Shown here: one piece after another, positions 37,220 through 43,502 of the stretch
Layout: every line of letters begins with the position of its first letter
Position numbering within the stretch: position 1 is the stretch's first letter
Source of the DNA: Thermoanaerobacterium sp. RBIITD
Lineage (GTDB): Bacteria; Bacillota; Thermoanaerobacteria; Thermoanaerobacterales; Thermoanaerobacteraceae
Length of the DNA stretch: 64,000 nt
Assembly (NCBI RefSeq): GCF_900205865.1
Contig: NZ_LT906662.1
Coordinates: 2,989,411 to 3,053,410 of the forward strand
Reading direction: 5' to 3'
The notes under the pieces: model-generated
Seen by the model: the letters and a program-made list of their open reading frames with translations, nothing else
What the model was told of the DNA's origin: nothing
Databases searched by the model: none
Made by a program: the position numbers and the translations under genes

Positions 37220-37933
37220 TTATATTTTTGAAAAATATAAGGTTATACCTTCTATAATGCTGTCTGACAATTTTGAAAGATATTCTTTACTTTGCAGGAG
37301 ATTTTTATCATCTTTATTAGTAATAAATCCCAGTTCTATTAAAACACCAGTTTTTTTTGCATTTGTCAGTAGGTAATAATCAGCTAAAGTTGGTTTTCTA
37401 TCAACACCCGTAGCATTATTTAATGATTTCTGAATTTCTTCAGCCAAGTAGTTGTTATTTTTATTGGTATTTGAATAAAAAACCATAGGTCCTTTGACAT
37501 GTGGGGCATTTGAAATTGCATTAACGTGAATGCTTAAATAGATGTCTATATTATTATCATTTATCATATTGACTCTAGCCTTTAGGTCTCTTCTATGTCT
37601 ATAATCATTGTCTTTATAAAAATTTTCAAGGGAAATATCTTTATCACGGGTCATAATAACATGTGCACCCTGTGAAATAAGTTTTGATTTAAGGATAAGG
37701 GATGCATTTAAATTTATATTTTTTTCCAATACGTTACCAGAATTTGTACCGCCATCTATACCTCCGTGCCCTGGATCTATAAGCACCGTTTTTCCTGACA
37801 ATGGTACTGAATATGAAAAAGCGTTAGAAAAAATACCATAAAATAACAAAGTCATGGTTAAGAGCACCATAACTATGGTAAAATATATATAAATATGCTT
37901 TTTATTAAGGTAGAAAACACGAATATTTTTCAA
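37220..37933 (-). CDS. cwlD: N-acetylmuramoyl-L-alanine amidase CwlD
   Basis: CwlD helps make the muramic delta-lactam of spore cortex. The 237-residue protein has one N-terminal membrane helix (HIYIYFTIVMVLLTMTLLFY) and an Amidase_3 domain: VLIDPGHGGIDGGTNSGN with the first zinc His, EKNINLNASLILKSKL, IDIYLSIHVNAISN with the second His, and VLIELGFITNKDDKNLL with the catalytic Glu. TTG 37933 is used because GGAGG lies 8 bases upstream; an in-frame TTG at 37948 overlaps that site. It is convergent with spoIIP. Confidence 0.92.
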   Translation of the reverse strand: MKNIRVFYLNKKHIYIYFTIVMVLLTMTLLFYGIFSNAFSYSVPLSGKTVLIDPGHGGIDGGTNSGNVLEKNINLNASLILKSKLISQGAHVIMTRDKDISLENFYKDNDYRHRRDLKARVNMINDNNIDIYLSIHVNAISNAPHVKGPMVFYSNTNKNNNYLAEEIQKSLNNATGVDRKPTLADYYLLTNAKKTGVLIELGFITNKDDKNLLQSKEYLSKLSDSIIEGITLYFSKI

Positions 37934-38047
37934 TTTAATTGCCTCCAATCTATAAATATATATTCAGAAAAACGGAGGTTTATTATACTTGATATTTTTA
38001 AAAATATTAGCTAAAATTAATATTTGTGAATAAATTAGGAGGGAACT

Positions 38048-40243
38048 ATGAAAAGCCGTTTTAAATATATTTTGATTTTTTTGCTATTATTTTCGTGTAT
38101 ATATTCGGTTAGTTATGCTAAAACAGATGTTAGCAATAAAAAGGTCATTGTGTTCATAATAAACAGAGTAACACTTAATGATTATATACAAAATGATTTA
38201 CCTAATATAAAAAACTTGATAAATCGTGGAGCATATGGATTGATGACAGTTAATTCTGATGGCGGAAGGTCTGCCGAAAATGTGTTTATGACAATAGGTA
38301 CCGGTACAAGGGCACTAGGATCAGGTTCAGCATCTTTAAACTATAATTCTGAGGAAATTGTCGATAGTGAGAAGGCATCAATTTTATTTGAAAGAAATTC
38401 TGGTATTGTGCCAAGAAATGGAAATATTTTAAATCTAGATATTGCACAGATAAAAAGGAACAATATGAAAAGTAATCATATTGTAAAACCAGGTCTTCTT
38501 GGAGAACTTCTTGAGGAAAATGGTTATAATATTGCTGTTTTTGGGAATGAAGATACAGATAAGGAAATAAAAAGATTTGCTCCATTAATTGGAATGGATT
38601 ATAATGGCATAGTACCATATGGTGATGTAAGCACTGATATTTTAAAAAGAGAACCTTTAAGCCCATTTGGCATAACTTTGGATTATAATGTAATTTATAA
38701 TAAATACAATGCAATAAAAGATACGTTAAATTTGACTATTTTTGATTTGGGTGATACTGCTAGAGCAAATGACTATCAGAATTATGCATTGGATAAAGTA
38801 AACATAATGAATAGAAAAAAAGCTTTGATAAATGCTGATAATTTTATAGGCGAAATTATAAAAGTTAATGACAAAAATACACTTTACATGGTTATAACAC
38901 CGCTTCCACCTACAAAAGAAATGAGTCAAAATGATTTTCTTACACCTGTTATAATGTATGGACCTGGCATTAATCATGGTAAATTTATTACGTCGGATAC
39001 TACGAAGAGAATAGGCGTTGTAACAAATATGGATATTTTACCAACGGTATTAAATTACTTTGGCATAGAAGTACCTTCTTTTGTGACGGGGCATCAATTA
39101 TATGCTTCTAAGGTTGATGGCAATTTAAAATTGCTACAAAAAATAGAAGAGCAGCTTACATACAATTATACATACAGGACGCCATTTTTAAAAACATATG
39201 TAGCTTTGCAGATAATAATATTAATACTTTCATCAGTTACACTTATTTTTTTAAAGAAGTATTCTGTGTATATGAAGCCTTTACTATTTTTTGTATCAGT
39301 TATACCTTTAAGTTTTTTACTATTGCCATTATTTGATTATACAAAGGTATCAAGCAGCTTAGCAGGTGTTCTTTTCTTGACAGCAATTTTTATCTTTGCA
39401 ATATATAAAATAAGCTCTATAAGCCATTATTACTACGCAGTGATTGCATTTATAACGACTGTTACTTTGCTTATCGATATGATGACGGGGAGTTTTCTAC
39501 TTAAAAATTCATTTTTAAGTTATGATGTTATTGCTGGCGCAAGATTTTATGGTATAGGCAATGAATATATGGGTGTTCTAATAGGTGGTACTTTATGCTT
39601 TACGACACTATCTTTTGAAAGATTTAATATTAAAAAACCTATTTTTATCATAACAGCTTTTATATATTTAATTGTGTTTTATTTTATAGCCGCTCCCAAC
39701 ATGGGCACAAACGTGGGTGGTGGTATTGCAGCATTTGCTGCTTTTTCAACTGCGATTTTGCTTTTATCAGGAAAAAAGTTAAATTTAAAAAATGCTATAT
39801 CAATCATAATTGGTATTTTTGCATTGATTTTGATTTTATTTTATATCGATTCACTAAGGCCTGTATCTCAACAAACACATATAGGACAGACTTTTAATTT
39901 AATAAAAGGATATGGCTTAAATCCGTTATTTAAAATTTTTGCACGAAAGCTAAGTATGAACATGAAATTATTTAGGTATTCTATATGGAGTAAAGTACTA
40001 ATAACGCTTATAATTGTCCTTTTTGTGTTGTTTTATAAACCAATCGGTGTTATGAAAAACTTTTTAAAAAACCATAAATATGTATATATTTGTTTTTTCT
40101 CAACAATAATAGGAAGCATATTTGCACTTGTTTTTAACGACTCTGGTGTTGTTGCTGCCGCAACAATGATGGTTTATACTGGACCTATGATTGTACACTT
40201 TATTATTGATGAATTAGAACATGATAATGAGGAAAAAGGATGA
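38048..40243 (+). CDS. Membrane protein with alkaline-phosphatase-superfamily-like domain
   Basis: I recognise the fold only in part. The 731 residues have a signal or anchor segment (YILIFLLLFSCIYSVSYA), an extracytoplasmic domain to about 370, and about ten membrane helices after that. The outer domain follows the alkaline phosphatase superfamily: VIVFIINRVTLNDYIQNDLP, LINRGAYGLMTVNSDGGRSA and NMDILPTVLNYFGIEVPSF. But the first metal Asp appears as Asn (IINRV) and no SDHG-type Asp-His pair is seen where MVITPLPPTKE stands, so catalysis is doubtful. AATTAGGAGGGA precedes the ATG. It is 6 bases before a glycosyltransferase gene, suggesting an envelope glycan or lipid role. Confidence 0.65.
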   Translation: MKSRFKYILIFLLLFSCIYSVSYAKTDVSNKKVIVFIINRVTLNDYIQNDLPNIKNLINRGAYGLMTVNSDGGRSAENVFMTIGTGTRALGSGSASLNYNSEEIVDSEKASILFERNSGIVPRNGNILNLDIAQIKRNNMKSNHIVKPGLLGELLEENGYNIAVFGNEDTDKEIKRFAPLIGMDYNGIVPYGDVSTDILKREPLSPFGITLDYNVIYNKYNAIKDTLNLTIFDLGDTARANDYQNYALDKVNIMNRKKALINADNFIGEIIKVNDKNTLYMVITPLPPTKEMSQNDFLTPVIMYGPGINHGKFITSDTTKRIGVVTNMDILPTVLNYFGIEVPSFVTGHQLYASKVDGNLKLLQKIEEQLTYNYTYRTPFLKTYVALQIIILILSSVTLIFLKKYSVYMKPLLFFVSVIPLSFLLLPLFDYTKVSSSLAGVLFLTAIFIFAIYKISSISHYYYAVIAFITTVTLLIDMMTGSFLLKNSFLSYDVIAGARFYGIGNEYMGVLIGGTLCFTTLSFERFNIKKPIFIITAFIYLIVFYFIAAPNMGTNVGGGIAAFAAFSTAILLLSGKKLNLKNAISIIIGIFALILILFYIDSLRPVSQQTHIGQTFNLIKGYGLNPLFKIFARKLSMNMKLFRYSIWSKVLITLIIVLFVLFYKPIGVMKNFLKNHKYVYICFFSTIIGSIFALVFNDSGVVAAATMMVYTGPMIVHFIIDELEHDNEEKG

Positions 40244-40249
40244 TTTAAA

Positions 40250-41383
40250 ATGGAGAAGATTAAAGTAATGCATATAATAAGAAGAGCGGAGGGCGGCATG
40301 AAAAAGCATTTATTATCAATATTAAATAACCTTGATAAAAATAAGTATGAAGTAGCAGTAGGATGTAATTTTGATGTTAATACTGTAAATAATTTAAAAG
40401 AAAATGGAATTAAGGTATTTGACATCGATATTTGCGATGGATTGAACCCTTCGAAGGACCTAAAGTCAATCATAAAATTAAGGGAAATTATAAAAGAATT
40501 TAAACCAGAAATAATTCATTTTCACGGTTCAAAAGCGTCTCTTGTAGGTAGAATAGCATGTATTGGACTGAATTTAAAAATAGTAATTACAATACATAAT
40601 TTTCCTGATTATTATAATATGAATTTATTGAAAAAAAATATCTACCTGTTTTTAAATAGATACTTAAATAAACGAACATCTAAAATTATTACAGTTTCTA
40701 ATGCTTTAAAAAATGAAATAGAAGGGGTTGAGGCCGTAAACCCGAATAAAATAAAAACCATATATAACTGTGTAGATATATCTTCATACAAAGGCAATCC
40801 ATCATTGGATTTAAGGAAAGAATACAATATCGATTCTAATACTTTGATAATTGGATGTATATCAAGACTTATACCATCAAAAGGAGTTCAAGACCTAATA
40901 AATGCATTGGCATTAATTAAAAATGAAATTAATCTTTTTGTTTTCATAGCGGGTGACGGACCATATCTTGAAGATTTAAAAAGCATGATAAAAGATATGA
41001 AACTTGATAATATAGAATTTTTGGGATATAGGGATGACATACCAGACTTTTTAAGAAACATAGACATTTTTGTTTTGCCATCATATAGTGAAGGTTTTGG
41101 GCTTTCTGTTGCTGAAGCAATGTTTTTAGAAAAACCAGTTATTGCAACAGATGTTGGGGGAATACCTGAAATTATAAAGAATAATGTAAATGGGTTAATT
41201 GTTAAGCCAGGTAAACCACAAGAATTAGCTGTTGCTATAAAAAAACTTGCAAGCGATGAAAGAATGAGGAAAGAATTTTCTCTAAAAGGCAAAGAATATG
41301 TTATAAATAATTTTTCACGGGAAAAAATGTTAAATGAGATCGACTTTATATATGATAGCCTTAGGAGGAAAATAAAAACTTGA
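40250..41383 (+). CDS. Glycosyltransferase, GT4 family
   Basis: This 377-residue GT-B enzyme starts KVMHIIRRAEGGMKKHLLSI, where the Gly-rich loop binds the acceptor side, has SRLIPSKGVQDLINAL at the linker, and the nucleotide-sugar motif SYSEGFGLSVAEAMFLEKPV (EX7E) near residue 283, followed by ATDVGGIPEIIKNNVNGL. It is predicted to be cytoplasmic, with an unknown sugar donor and acceptor. It lies between the AP-like membrane protein gene (6 bases) and a small membrane protein gene (4-base overlap), so these three form one unit. Confidence 0.9.
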   Translation: MEKIKVMHIIRRAEGGMKKHLLSILNNLDKNKYEVAVGCNFDVNTVNNLKENGIKVFDIDICDGLNPSKDLKSIIKLREIIKEFKPEIIHFHGSKASLVGRIACIGLNLKIVITIHNFPDYYNMNLLKKNIYLFLNRYLNKRTSKIITVSNALKNEIEGVEAVNPNKIKTIYNCVDISSYKGNPSLDLRKEYNIDSNTLIIGCISRLIPSKGVQDLINALALIKNEINLFVFIAGDGPYLEDLKSMIKDMKLDNIEFLGYRDDIPDFLRNIDIFVLPSYSEGFGLSVAEAMFLEKPVIATDVGGIPEIIKNNVNGLIVKPGKPQELAVAIKKLASDERMRKEFSLKGKEYVINNFSREKMLNEIDFIYDSLRRKIKT

Positions 41384-41640
41384 GCAGAGTAGAAAAAAAA
41401 AGAAAAAAACTTAATAGAAGAAGACTTTTATACATATGTATTTTTGCCTATATCATATTTATTATATCATGCTTATTTGCCGTAAATTTTGCATTTAATA
41501 CGTTAAGTACAGGTGAAGTAAAACAAACGCTTTTTAAAATGAGTTATAAAAGAAATATCATTTATTTTACTGTTTTTGGTGAAGAGAAGTATGTATCATT
41601 AAAAGGCGTCTTTGATATTTTCAAATCCCTTTATAACTGA
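41380..41640 (+). CDS. Small single-helix membrane protein, unknown
   Basis: The 86-residue product has a very basic N-terminus ([14 protein letters not shown]), one long hydrophobic helix ([20 protein letters not shown]) and a short outer domain of about 45 residues. By the positive-inside rule the C-terminus is outside. I know no family. TTG 41380 overlaps the glycosyltransferase stop, and TTAGGAGG lies 10 bases before it, so it is the third gene of the unit. It does not contain LysM, SPOR or other obvious motifs. Confidence 0.6.
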
Positions 41641-41684
41641 TTTCTTTATGTTATAATAATATTATGTTAAAGAGGAGGTTTGAA

Positions 41685-43502
41685 ATGTCGAAGGGTAAAA
41701 AGAAGAACATAAGAAATTTTTGCATTATTGCACATATTGACCATGGTAAATCAACATTAGCAGATAGATTAATTGAGAAGACTGGAGTATTGACTGAAAG
41801 AGAGATGGAAGAACAGGTTCTTGATAGTATGGACCTTGAGCGTGAGAGAGGAATAACTATTAAACTTCAGCCTGTGAGGCTAATATATAAAGCTAAAAAT
41901 GGCCAAGAGTATGAATTAAACCTTATCGATACACCTGGGCATGTCGATTTTACTTATGAAGTATCAAGAAGTATTGCTGCATGTGAAGGGGCATTGCTTG
42001 TTGTTGATGCTACACAGGGTATAGAGGCACAGACATTAGCAAATGTATATCTTGCGTTAGAACATGACTTAGAAATAGTTCCTGTGATAAATAAAATAGA
42101 CCTTCCATCAGCGGATCCTGATTTTGTTAAGAAAGAAATTGAAGATGTTATAGGCATTGATACAGAAGAAGCAATACTTACGTCGGCAAAAGAGGGAATA
42201 GGAATTGATGATGTCCTTGAAGCCATAGTAAAAAAGATACCGGAACCCTCAGGTGATCCGGATATGCCACTTAAGGCATTGATATTCGATTCATATTATG
42301 ATAATTATAAAGGTGCAATTAGCTTTGTAAGGATATTTGACGGTTCTGTAAAACAAGGCGACAAAATAAAAATGATGTCGTCAGGTAAAGAATTTGAGGT
42401 AACAGAAGTTGGTATCTTTAGACCAAATTTAAGTTCTGTTGATATTCTCAATGCAGGTGATGTAGGATATATAGCTGCTAGTATAAAAAATGTAAGTGAT
42501 ACAAGGGTTGGCGATACAATTACGAATGCCGAAAATCCTGCATCAGAACCATTACCTGGATATAAAAAGGTTACACCAATGGTTTATTGCGGAATATATC
42601 CTGCAGAAGGTGAAGATTATGAGAACTTGAAGGATGCACTTTTAAAACTGCAATTAAATGATGCATCACTTACTTTTGAACCGGATACATCGGCAGCCCT
42701 TGGCTTTGGGTTTAGATGTGGTTTCTTAGGTTTATTGCATATGGATATAGTGCAGGAAAGGCTTGAAAGAGAGTATAATTTAAATCTTGTTACAACAGCA
42801 CCTGGCGTTATATACAAAGTATATAAGACAAATGGTGAAATATTAGAACTTGACAATCCTGCTAATTTGCCTGAACAAACTGAAATTGATCATATAGAAG
42901 AACCGATAATCGATGCTACGATTATGTCTCCGACTGACTATGTTGGACCAATTATGGAATTATGCCAAGATAGAAGAGGCATATATAAAGGTATGGATTA
43001 TCTTGAACCTACGAGGGTTTTGATAAAATATGACATGCCATTAAATGAAATTATATACGACTTTTTTGATGCGCTTAAATCAAGAACAAAGGGATATGCT
43101 TCATTGGATTATGAGCTTAAAGGGTATAAAGCATCAGACCTAGTAAAACTTGATATACTTATAAATGGTGAAATGGTTGATGCTCTTTCAATGATAGTTC
43201 ATAAGGATAAAGCATATGAAAGAGCAAGAAAGATGACAGAGAAATTAAAAGAAAGCATACCAAGGCACCTTTTTGAAATTCCCATTCAGGCAGCCATAGG
43301 TTCTAAGATAATAGCGAGGGAAACTGTAAAAGCTTTAAGAAAGAACGTCCTTGCGAAATGCTATGGTGGCGATATAACGAGGAAAAAGAAGCTCTTAGAA
43401 AAGCAAAAAGAAGGTAAAAAGCGTATGAGGCAGATTGGCAAGGTTGAAATACCTCAAGAGGCATTTATGTCAATATTAAAGCTCGATGATGACAATGGTT
43501 AG
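41685..43502 (+). CDS. lepA: Elongation factor 4 (LepA)
   Basis: EF4 is a ribosomal GTPase thought to back-translocate or remodel stalled ribosomes. The 605 residues from ATG 41685 include [60 protein letters not shown], and the EF4-specific C-terminal domain with [20 protein letters not shown]. The ATG at 41664 is in frame but its AGAGGAGG is 7 bases before 41685, so the shorter form is right. It overlaps hemW by 17 bases. Confidence 0.97.

Follow-up and report, generated by a model that had tools for sequence, protein, structure and literature searches.

The genome of Thermoanaerobacterium sp. RBIITD carries three tightly spaced genes on the plus strand, between two genes that we take from their sequences to be cwlD and lepA, and the question is what these genes do. 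They lie in a window of 64,000 nucleotides, i.e. the whole stretch of DNA that was analysed (positions 2,989,411 to 3,053,410 of a single 3.4-Mb contig). The first gene, here called A (38048-40243, + strand, ATG start), encodes an envelope protein of 731 amino acids, in which an outer domain resembling alkaline phosphatase (AP) is followed by a membrane domain. B (40250-41383, +) encodes a glycosyltransferase of 377 amino acids and C (41380-41640, +, TTG start) a basic protein of 86 amino acids. The open reading frames (ORFs) confirm the layout given by the initial annotation, with 6 bp between A and B and an overlap of 4 bp between B and C. That annotation had suggested that the three genes make or flip a glycolipid or wall polymer, possibly for the spore. 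We give a slightly better than even chance to the view that A is the outer-face polymerase or ligase, and B the cytoplasmic transferase, of a lipid-linked envelope glycan pathway associated with SteA-SteB (SteAB).

The assignment of B as a cytoplasmic glycosyltransferase holds, as its matches to PF13439 (2e-24) and PF00534 (2e-45) represent the N- and C-domains of the GT4 family. The glutamates of its E-x7-E motif, E281 and E289, are invariant in 25 sequences (24 of 42 GT4 neighbours of A and the B of the window). Within its own genome, B scores 504 bits against the profile of its family, compared with 213 bits for the next GT4 protein. The pairing with A was counted for the 105 A genes in loci L020 to L124, from which six without a GT4 gene at contig edges were set aside; these counts are raw, i.e. 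related genomes are counted separately, and L020 and L025 contain one gene. A GT4 gene is located directly beside A in 55 of the remaining 99 loci, before it in 30 and after it in 25, always on the same strand, and in one further case (the second A of L106) the distance is 1.2 kb. A and B are an old pair, and A is more than a chance ORF: it is retained in several families and in more than one phylum, where the pairing with B is also seen again. C has no family match above the cut-off and, read by eye, consists of one hydrophobic helix after a basic start, as previously described. In a search among loci L020 to L120, it was found beside seven A-B pairs, all in genomes of the window's family or named Thermoanaerobacterium, Thermoanaerobacter or Caldanaerobacter. 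Since C has been seen just in the window's family, the proposed trio is better described as a pair.

In Actinomycetota, A and B are often found in one locus with steA and steB. After removal of three repeats (L233, L234 and L236, equal to L199, L196 and L108), 49 distinct A loci contain, within 7 kb, B in 18 cases (16 on the strand of A), a gene that we call W in 16, steA in 15, steB in 13, pyrG in 16 and recN in 10. The typical order is recN-steA-steB-(GT2)-B-A-W-pyrG. These locus counts, like those for the Bacillota side, are raw with respect to relatedness, and a few genomes may be included twice, once with and once without a name. On the Bacillota side, 7 of 98 A loci, of the Tepidanaerobacter type, have A opposite steA-steB-GT2-W. 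In the window's own genome, RecN, SpoIVB, Spo0A, SteA, MctB/SteB, GT2 and W are encoded in succession about 150 kb from A (L241), and the steA-steB-GT2-W cassette was confirmed by Pfam and NCBIfam. The same order is present in all six SteA loci that we chose for examination, including that of the own genome. In one of them (L245:5357-6792, genome G016) two ORFs, perhaps a transposon-type insertion, are located between steA and steB. W matches PF00953 in L060 (7.8e-11) and in the own genome (4.8e-11), and nine aligned W proteins contain Asp-Asp, NxxNLxD and GDxG(S/A)N, which are presumably the functional motifs of PNPT enzymes. These features identify W as a putative WecA/MraY-like PNPT sugar-1-phosphate transferase, i.e. 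a candidate initiator.

The co-occurrence of A and SteA extends beyond shared loci. Of 299 genomes from the window's phylum, 182 have both A and SteA, 3 have A only (185 with A in total), 7 have SteA only and 107 have neither. The resulting phi coefficient is 0.93 for A and SteA versus 0.46 for A and SpoIVA, in both cases uncorrected for shared ancestry. Six of the seven genomes with SteA only belong to a sister family, f4; A may have been missed there rather than be missing, because another f4 genome encodes an A-like protein without a recognisable AP domain. In the available text of three papers, SteA-SteB of Corynebacteriales are described as controlling the hydrolase RipA or the MtrAB system (PMC12977500, PMC6705760, PMC12338722), and the location of steAB downstream of spo0A in Clostridia is already in print (PMC12977500, available text). 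The word glycosyltransferase does not occur in the main text of these three papers, and an association of A, B and W with SteAB was not found in the accessible literature of the one library searched. The earlier suggestion that the genes help to make a glycolipid or wall polymer is supported by their linkage with SteA-SteB, a GT2 and a candidate initiator of the WecA/MraY type.

The residues of A with the strongest conservation fall into its membrane half (residues ~360-731, 39125-40240, +). Structures were modelled with AlphaFold2 on an alignment of 73 sequences, consisting of 72 of 78 named A proteins and the window protein. Six proteins (L045, L053, L059, L068, L074, L081) and ORFs outside a filter of 690-830 amino acids were left out, and long rows were shortened at the N-terminus to 740 codons. 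The model of A has a pLDDT of 92.6 and a pTM of 0.89, and the membrane domain folded alone reaches a pLDDT of 92.5; ten to eleven long helices are seen, in line with the about ten that had been noted. Residue counts were taken over 146 distinct A proteins. R499, G502 and G553 are each present in all 146, H611 and D698 each in 144, N505 in 143, N697 in 139 and K634 in 137. R499 is part of the signature GARFYGIGNEYMG (residues 497-509, 39536-39574, +) in a predicted outer loop, while H611 and the R633-K634 pair belong to a segment (39878-39949, +) with a helix, residues 625-644, that is also predicted to lie outside. Judged from the helix order in the model, the conserved residues of the membrane domain are predicted to be on the outer face. 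Pfam at a threshold of 0.01 matched one of 73 membrane domains, by a weak phage-holin hit, and NCBIfam has no family for 17 full-length members. The A-like protein of the f4 genome, with 502 residues, has the membrane signature and retains RFYGIGNE, RK and FNDSG.

The outer domain (residues ~30-357, 38135-39118, +) has a recognisable fold and a degenerate metal site. In the model it adopts an AP fold, as had been claimed: among 50 matches listed, comparison with VIA gives iPGM, NPP, sulfatases and phosphatases at Z 21.3-23.0 over 242-275 residues. The domain can be aligned in 130 of the 146 proteins. The Asp-His pair of the AP metal site is absent from all 146, none has a His at position 240, and a His within 294-297 occurs in 12; Arg239 is conserved in 130. 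These counts indicate that the classical two-metal site has been lost. In hhalign with the iPGM of the own genome, TPLPP of A falls on TADHG of iPGM, the latter including residues that we take to be metal ligands. By these comparisons, the AP site appears degenerate family-wide and lacks what would identify an active AP enzyme, in agreement with the earlier description as an AP-like pseudoenzyme. One detail needs correction. The initial annotation had listed Asn in place of Asp together with the missing Asp-His pair; the latter stands for the whole family. Asn39, which sits at the expected first metal-ligand Asp, is true of the window protein and is a minority state: among 97 Bacillota-side sequences, position 39 is Asp in 81, Asn in 14, Ser in one and a gap in one.

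These components can be combined into a putative pathway. W would prime the polyprenyl-phosphate carrier as a PF00953 sugar-1-phosphate transferase, GT2 and B would add sugars in the cytoplasm, and the glycolipid would be flipped by a further protein. On the outer face, A would transfer or polymerise the glycan by its proposed SEDS/WaaL-like membrane domain. A is predicted to use a lipid-diphosphate sugar as glycosyl donor, with R499 and R633-K634 as candidate residues for binding the diphosphate and H611 or D698 for activation of the acceptor. The arrangement of W, GT2/B and a polytopic outer protein whose conserved residues include Arg, His and Asp resembles that of Wzx/Wzy and WaaL pathways, in which A would occupy the polymerase or ligase slot. 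The AP-fold domain would be accessory and metal-free, with a probable part in acceptor binding or regulation; an accessory role is suggested because the domain can be absent, as in the f4 protein. SteA-SteB would link the pathway with remodelling of the wall or with division. A wider proposal, which we put forward as tentative, is that A founds a new glycosyltransferase family of SEDS/WaaL type with a dead AP domain. It would form, together with SteA, SteB, W, GT2 and B, an ancient envelope-glycan machine of Clostridia-type Bacillota and Actinomycetota, and SteAB of mycobacteria and corynebacteria would be a remnant after loss of the glycan genes.

The assignment to SEDS/WaaL is derived from structure comparison. 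The best eight VIA matches of the membrane domain, among 50 listed, all come from RodA, FtsW complexes or WaaL, with Z 8.0-9.7; a designed protein follows in ninth place (Z 6.8), and the other GT-C proteins AftB, PglB and ArnT are found at Z 5.1-6.2 among designed proteins and G-protein-coupled receptors. In low-confidence alignments, GARFYGIGN of A is paired with GA.RWIGYGN..QPSE of SEDS, and P.LGTN with QPDLGT. In the available text on the GT-C1 clan, conserved residues are on the outer face, an Arg serves the diphosphate and the base is His, Asp or Glu (PMC10920833); for RodA, the accessible part of one paper places a conserved Arg on an amphipathic helix of the outer side (PMC10449877). 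R499, R633-K634, H611 and D698 of A may represent this pattern, their position on the outer face being predicted from the models. We take kinship of the membrane domain to SEDS/WaaL to be likely.

Several observations weigh against this reading. According to the note of VIA itself, Z values below 13 for helical bundles may reflect merely a common arrangement. Foldseek with the membrane domain gives nothing below E 0.45 and lists mainly ABC exporters; an exporter is in the first row (E 0.45) and RodA in the second (E 0.53). PF01098 and PF04932 match none of the 73 membrane domains. In hhalign, the probability does not exceed 2.2% for the 40 best of 46 polytopic clusters, of which the top four by score are all Wzy_C and SEDS is sixth. 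When A served as query, the scores of single SEDS proteins were not above those of other membrane proteins (p 0.998) and Wzy_C proteins had a slight advantage (p 0.006), while a Wzy_C profile detects SEDS clearly in the same test. In the reverse test, for which 37 of the 73 A proteins were used, A is just marginally above other membrane proteins (p 0.054 with the Wzy_C profile, 0.030 with the SEDS profile and 0.005 with a pooled profile). The pooled Wzy_C and SEDS profile scores 37.4 against the A profile, and a score of 36.4 was reached once in 150 shuffles confined to 8 columns and never in 150 confined to 16, while the reversed query scores 32.8. A search of PDB sequences with the membrane-domain profile gave chance hits only. 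In sequence comparison, the kinship to SEDS/Wzy is therefore unproven, with tests that failed or were borderline. Parts of the locus data speak against the pathway as a whole: 43 of the 99 A loci have no GT4 in neighbouring ORFs, steA is within 7 kb of A in just 8 of 98 Bacillota-side loci, and Pfam at 1e-5 does not recognise the W of L190. In addition, the f4 protein has Tyr at H611 and Ala at D477, and neither flippase, sugar nor polymer was identified.

The loss of the metal site in all 146 proteins would also be expected if A were a regulator, with the AP pseudoenzyme as sensor of a lipid or glycan and the membrane domain signalling to B or SteA. The Foldseek hits of A include YejM/PbgA structures, and YejM/PbgA is thought to sense lipopolysaccharide. 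SteA-SteB are themselves regulators in the available text of PMC12977500. However, the putative sensor can be missing, being unrecognisable in the f4 protein and alignable in 130 of 146 proteins, yet several polar residues of the membrane half are near-invariant. We consider a regulator rather unlikely.

Among the genes of the shared locus none was recognised as a flippase, which leaves room for A as the flippase, or another transporter, of a lipid-linked glycan built by B. The Foldseek list of the membrane domain, mostly ABC exporters, could be taken in the same sense, though the TM-scores of these rows are ~0.1-0.2. After re-alignment no ABC exporter is among the 50 VIA rows listed, and the best of these rows are glycan transferases. 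Moreover, the conserved charged residues are in predicted loops on one side. A transport function is thus unlikely, and a polymerase or ligase is preferred for A.

The AP domain could alternatively be active in an unusual way, so that A would be a group transferase like LtaS, EptA or the glycosylphosphatidylinositol ethanolamine-phosphate transferases. The top Foldseek hits of A include LtaP and LtaS, and three positions are conserved in part: beside the Asp39 of most relatives, Asp236 is kept in 121 of 146 proteins, and position 75 is Ser or Thr in 38 of 73. The complete absence of the Asp-His pair and of His240 argues against such an activity, as do the missing Asp39 of the window protein and the unrecognisable AP domain of the f4 protein. 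We regard this explanation as quite improbable.

The presence of spoIIP and cwlD in the window would fit a spore role, and in the window's phylum SpoIVA is found in 182 of the 185 genomes with A. The three A genomes without SpoIVA all have SteA, and 75 SpoIVA genomes have no A. For comparison, 100 genomes were taken from the phylum of a metagenome-assembled genome titled Actinomycetota. A is present in 46 of them, near full length in 25 and with a best match that covers part of the model in 21; SpoIVA is present in none. A is thus not confined to endospore formers, and spore specificity was rejected, with SteA tracking A better. A spore-specific polymer of cortex, coat or forespore wall, although steAB follow spo0A in the own genome as in Clostridia (PMC12977500, available text), is very unlikely and largely refuted as an exclusive role by this distribution. 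In seven genomes (G064, G103, G162, G167, G191, G214, G298), A is located ~3-7 kb from spoIVA.

Two further candidates were rejected. A viral origin found no support, as there was no relative among 39 pattern matches and the PHROGs hits were just weak (best E 0.036). A link to polyamines was considered because 35 A loci among those fetched contain speD. Where loci were inspected, speD is followed by menaquinone genes. Desulfotomaculum-type loci (L063, L090 and similar) have A followed by speD and menaquinone-type genes, namely a polyprenyl synthase in L063 and a menaquinone decarboxylase with an MqnP-like prenyltransferase in L090, and the A-speD loci therefore look like a menaquinone neighbourhood. 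In four Thermosediminibacter-type loci (L054, L057, L058, L069), A is opposite a DUF2600 gene near a polyprenyl-synthase-like gene, and B is present in three of the four.

Around the genes in the window, the putative cwlD (37220-37948, minus strand) borders A on one side, spoIIP lies upstream of A by family match, and the putative lepA follows on the other side. For lepA, the mechanical start at 41664 precedes a good ribosome-binding sequence, and the ATG at 41685 is probably the real start (by eye, 41664-41690). Between 37800 and 41900, promoter-like sites are at shuffle level (29 versus 27.3), 3 terminator-like sites compare with 1.2 in shuffles, and a search for tandem repeats found none. 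The best named matches of A are from Thermoanaerobacterium. A second copy of A, 40% identical, is present in the genome at 1,524,226-1,526,370 (L021:8203-10407); it has no B-like or GT4 neighbour in the locus read and adjoins a gene of the arginine-deiminase family (PF02274). Two copies per genome are common in the window's family. In G051 (L039:6285-10751), two A proteins are fused head to tail in one frame of 1,488 amino acids, and G158 has a frame of similar length. In G015 (L017) and G019 (L019), A homologues are broken by stop codons or frame changes, and sister genomes have intact copies.

A large membrane protein in 185 of 299 genomes of a phylum, with a conserved half that is nameless in Pfam and full-length members for which NCBIfam is blank, deserves attention, and the pathway around it seems unnamed in the family databases searched. 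The link to SteA-SteB, a division pair known from relatives of the tuberculosis bacterium, provides this pair with a possible and testable partner pathway. If the SEDS/WaaL reading is true, A would stand for a further family of polymerases or ligases that carries an unusual accessory domain, and a wall or membrane glycan not yet described would be expected in two phyla.

Among known systems, the SEDS proteins RodA/FtsW (CAZy GT119) give, together with WaaL, the best VIA rows listed for the membrane domain of A. A is predicted to resemble them in having conserved residues outside and an outer helix with conserved basic residues, and the short SEDS motifs GA.RW..PSE and QPDLGT resemble GAR.YG.GNE and P.LGTN of A in low-confidence alignments. 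Different from SEDS, A shows no significant sequence profile match, has an AP domain fused in front and is partnered by a GT4 instead of a penicillin-binding protein; SEDS have HTD, whereas no conserved Asp is seen beside H611 of A. The O-antigen ligase WaaL and Wzy_C polymerases (GT121 and related BP-Pols) share with the proposed pathway of A the layout of initiator, cytoplasmic glycosyltransferases and outer transferase. WaaL is among the top eight VIA rows, and its catalytic His (PMC10920833, available text) may have a counterpart in the near-invariant His of A (144/146). In contrast to these proteins, A is unmatched by PF04932 and has an AP domain and a linkage to SteAB. YejM/PbgA, as a Foldseek hit of A, likewise has an AP-fold domain tied to an envelope-lipid system, but it is not known to have a GT4 partner and its membrane part and AP domain are in the opposite order; its catalytic status is reportedly debated, the title of one paper (PMC7576196) calling it a metalloenzyme. 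Finally, SteA-SteB (TapA/MctB) of Corynebacteriales correspond to the proteins that co-occur with A and sometimes adjoin it, whereas the role published for them, in the available text, is the control of RipA or MtrAB (PMC12977500, PMC6705760, PMC12338722).

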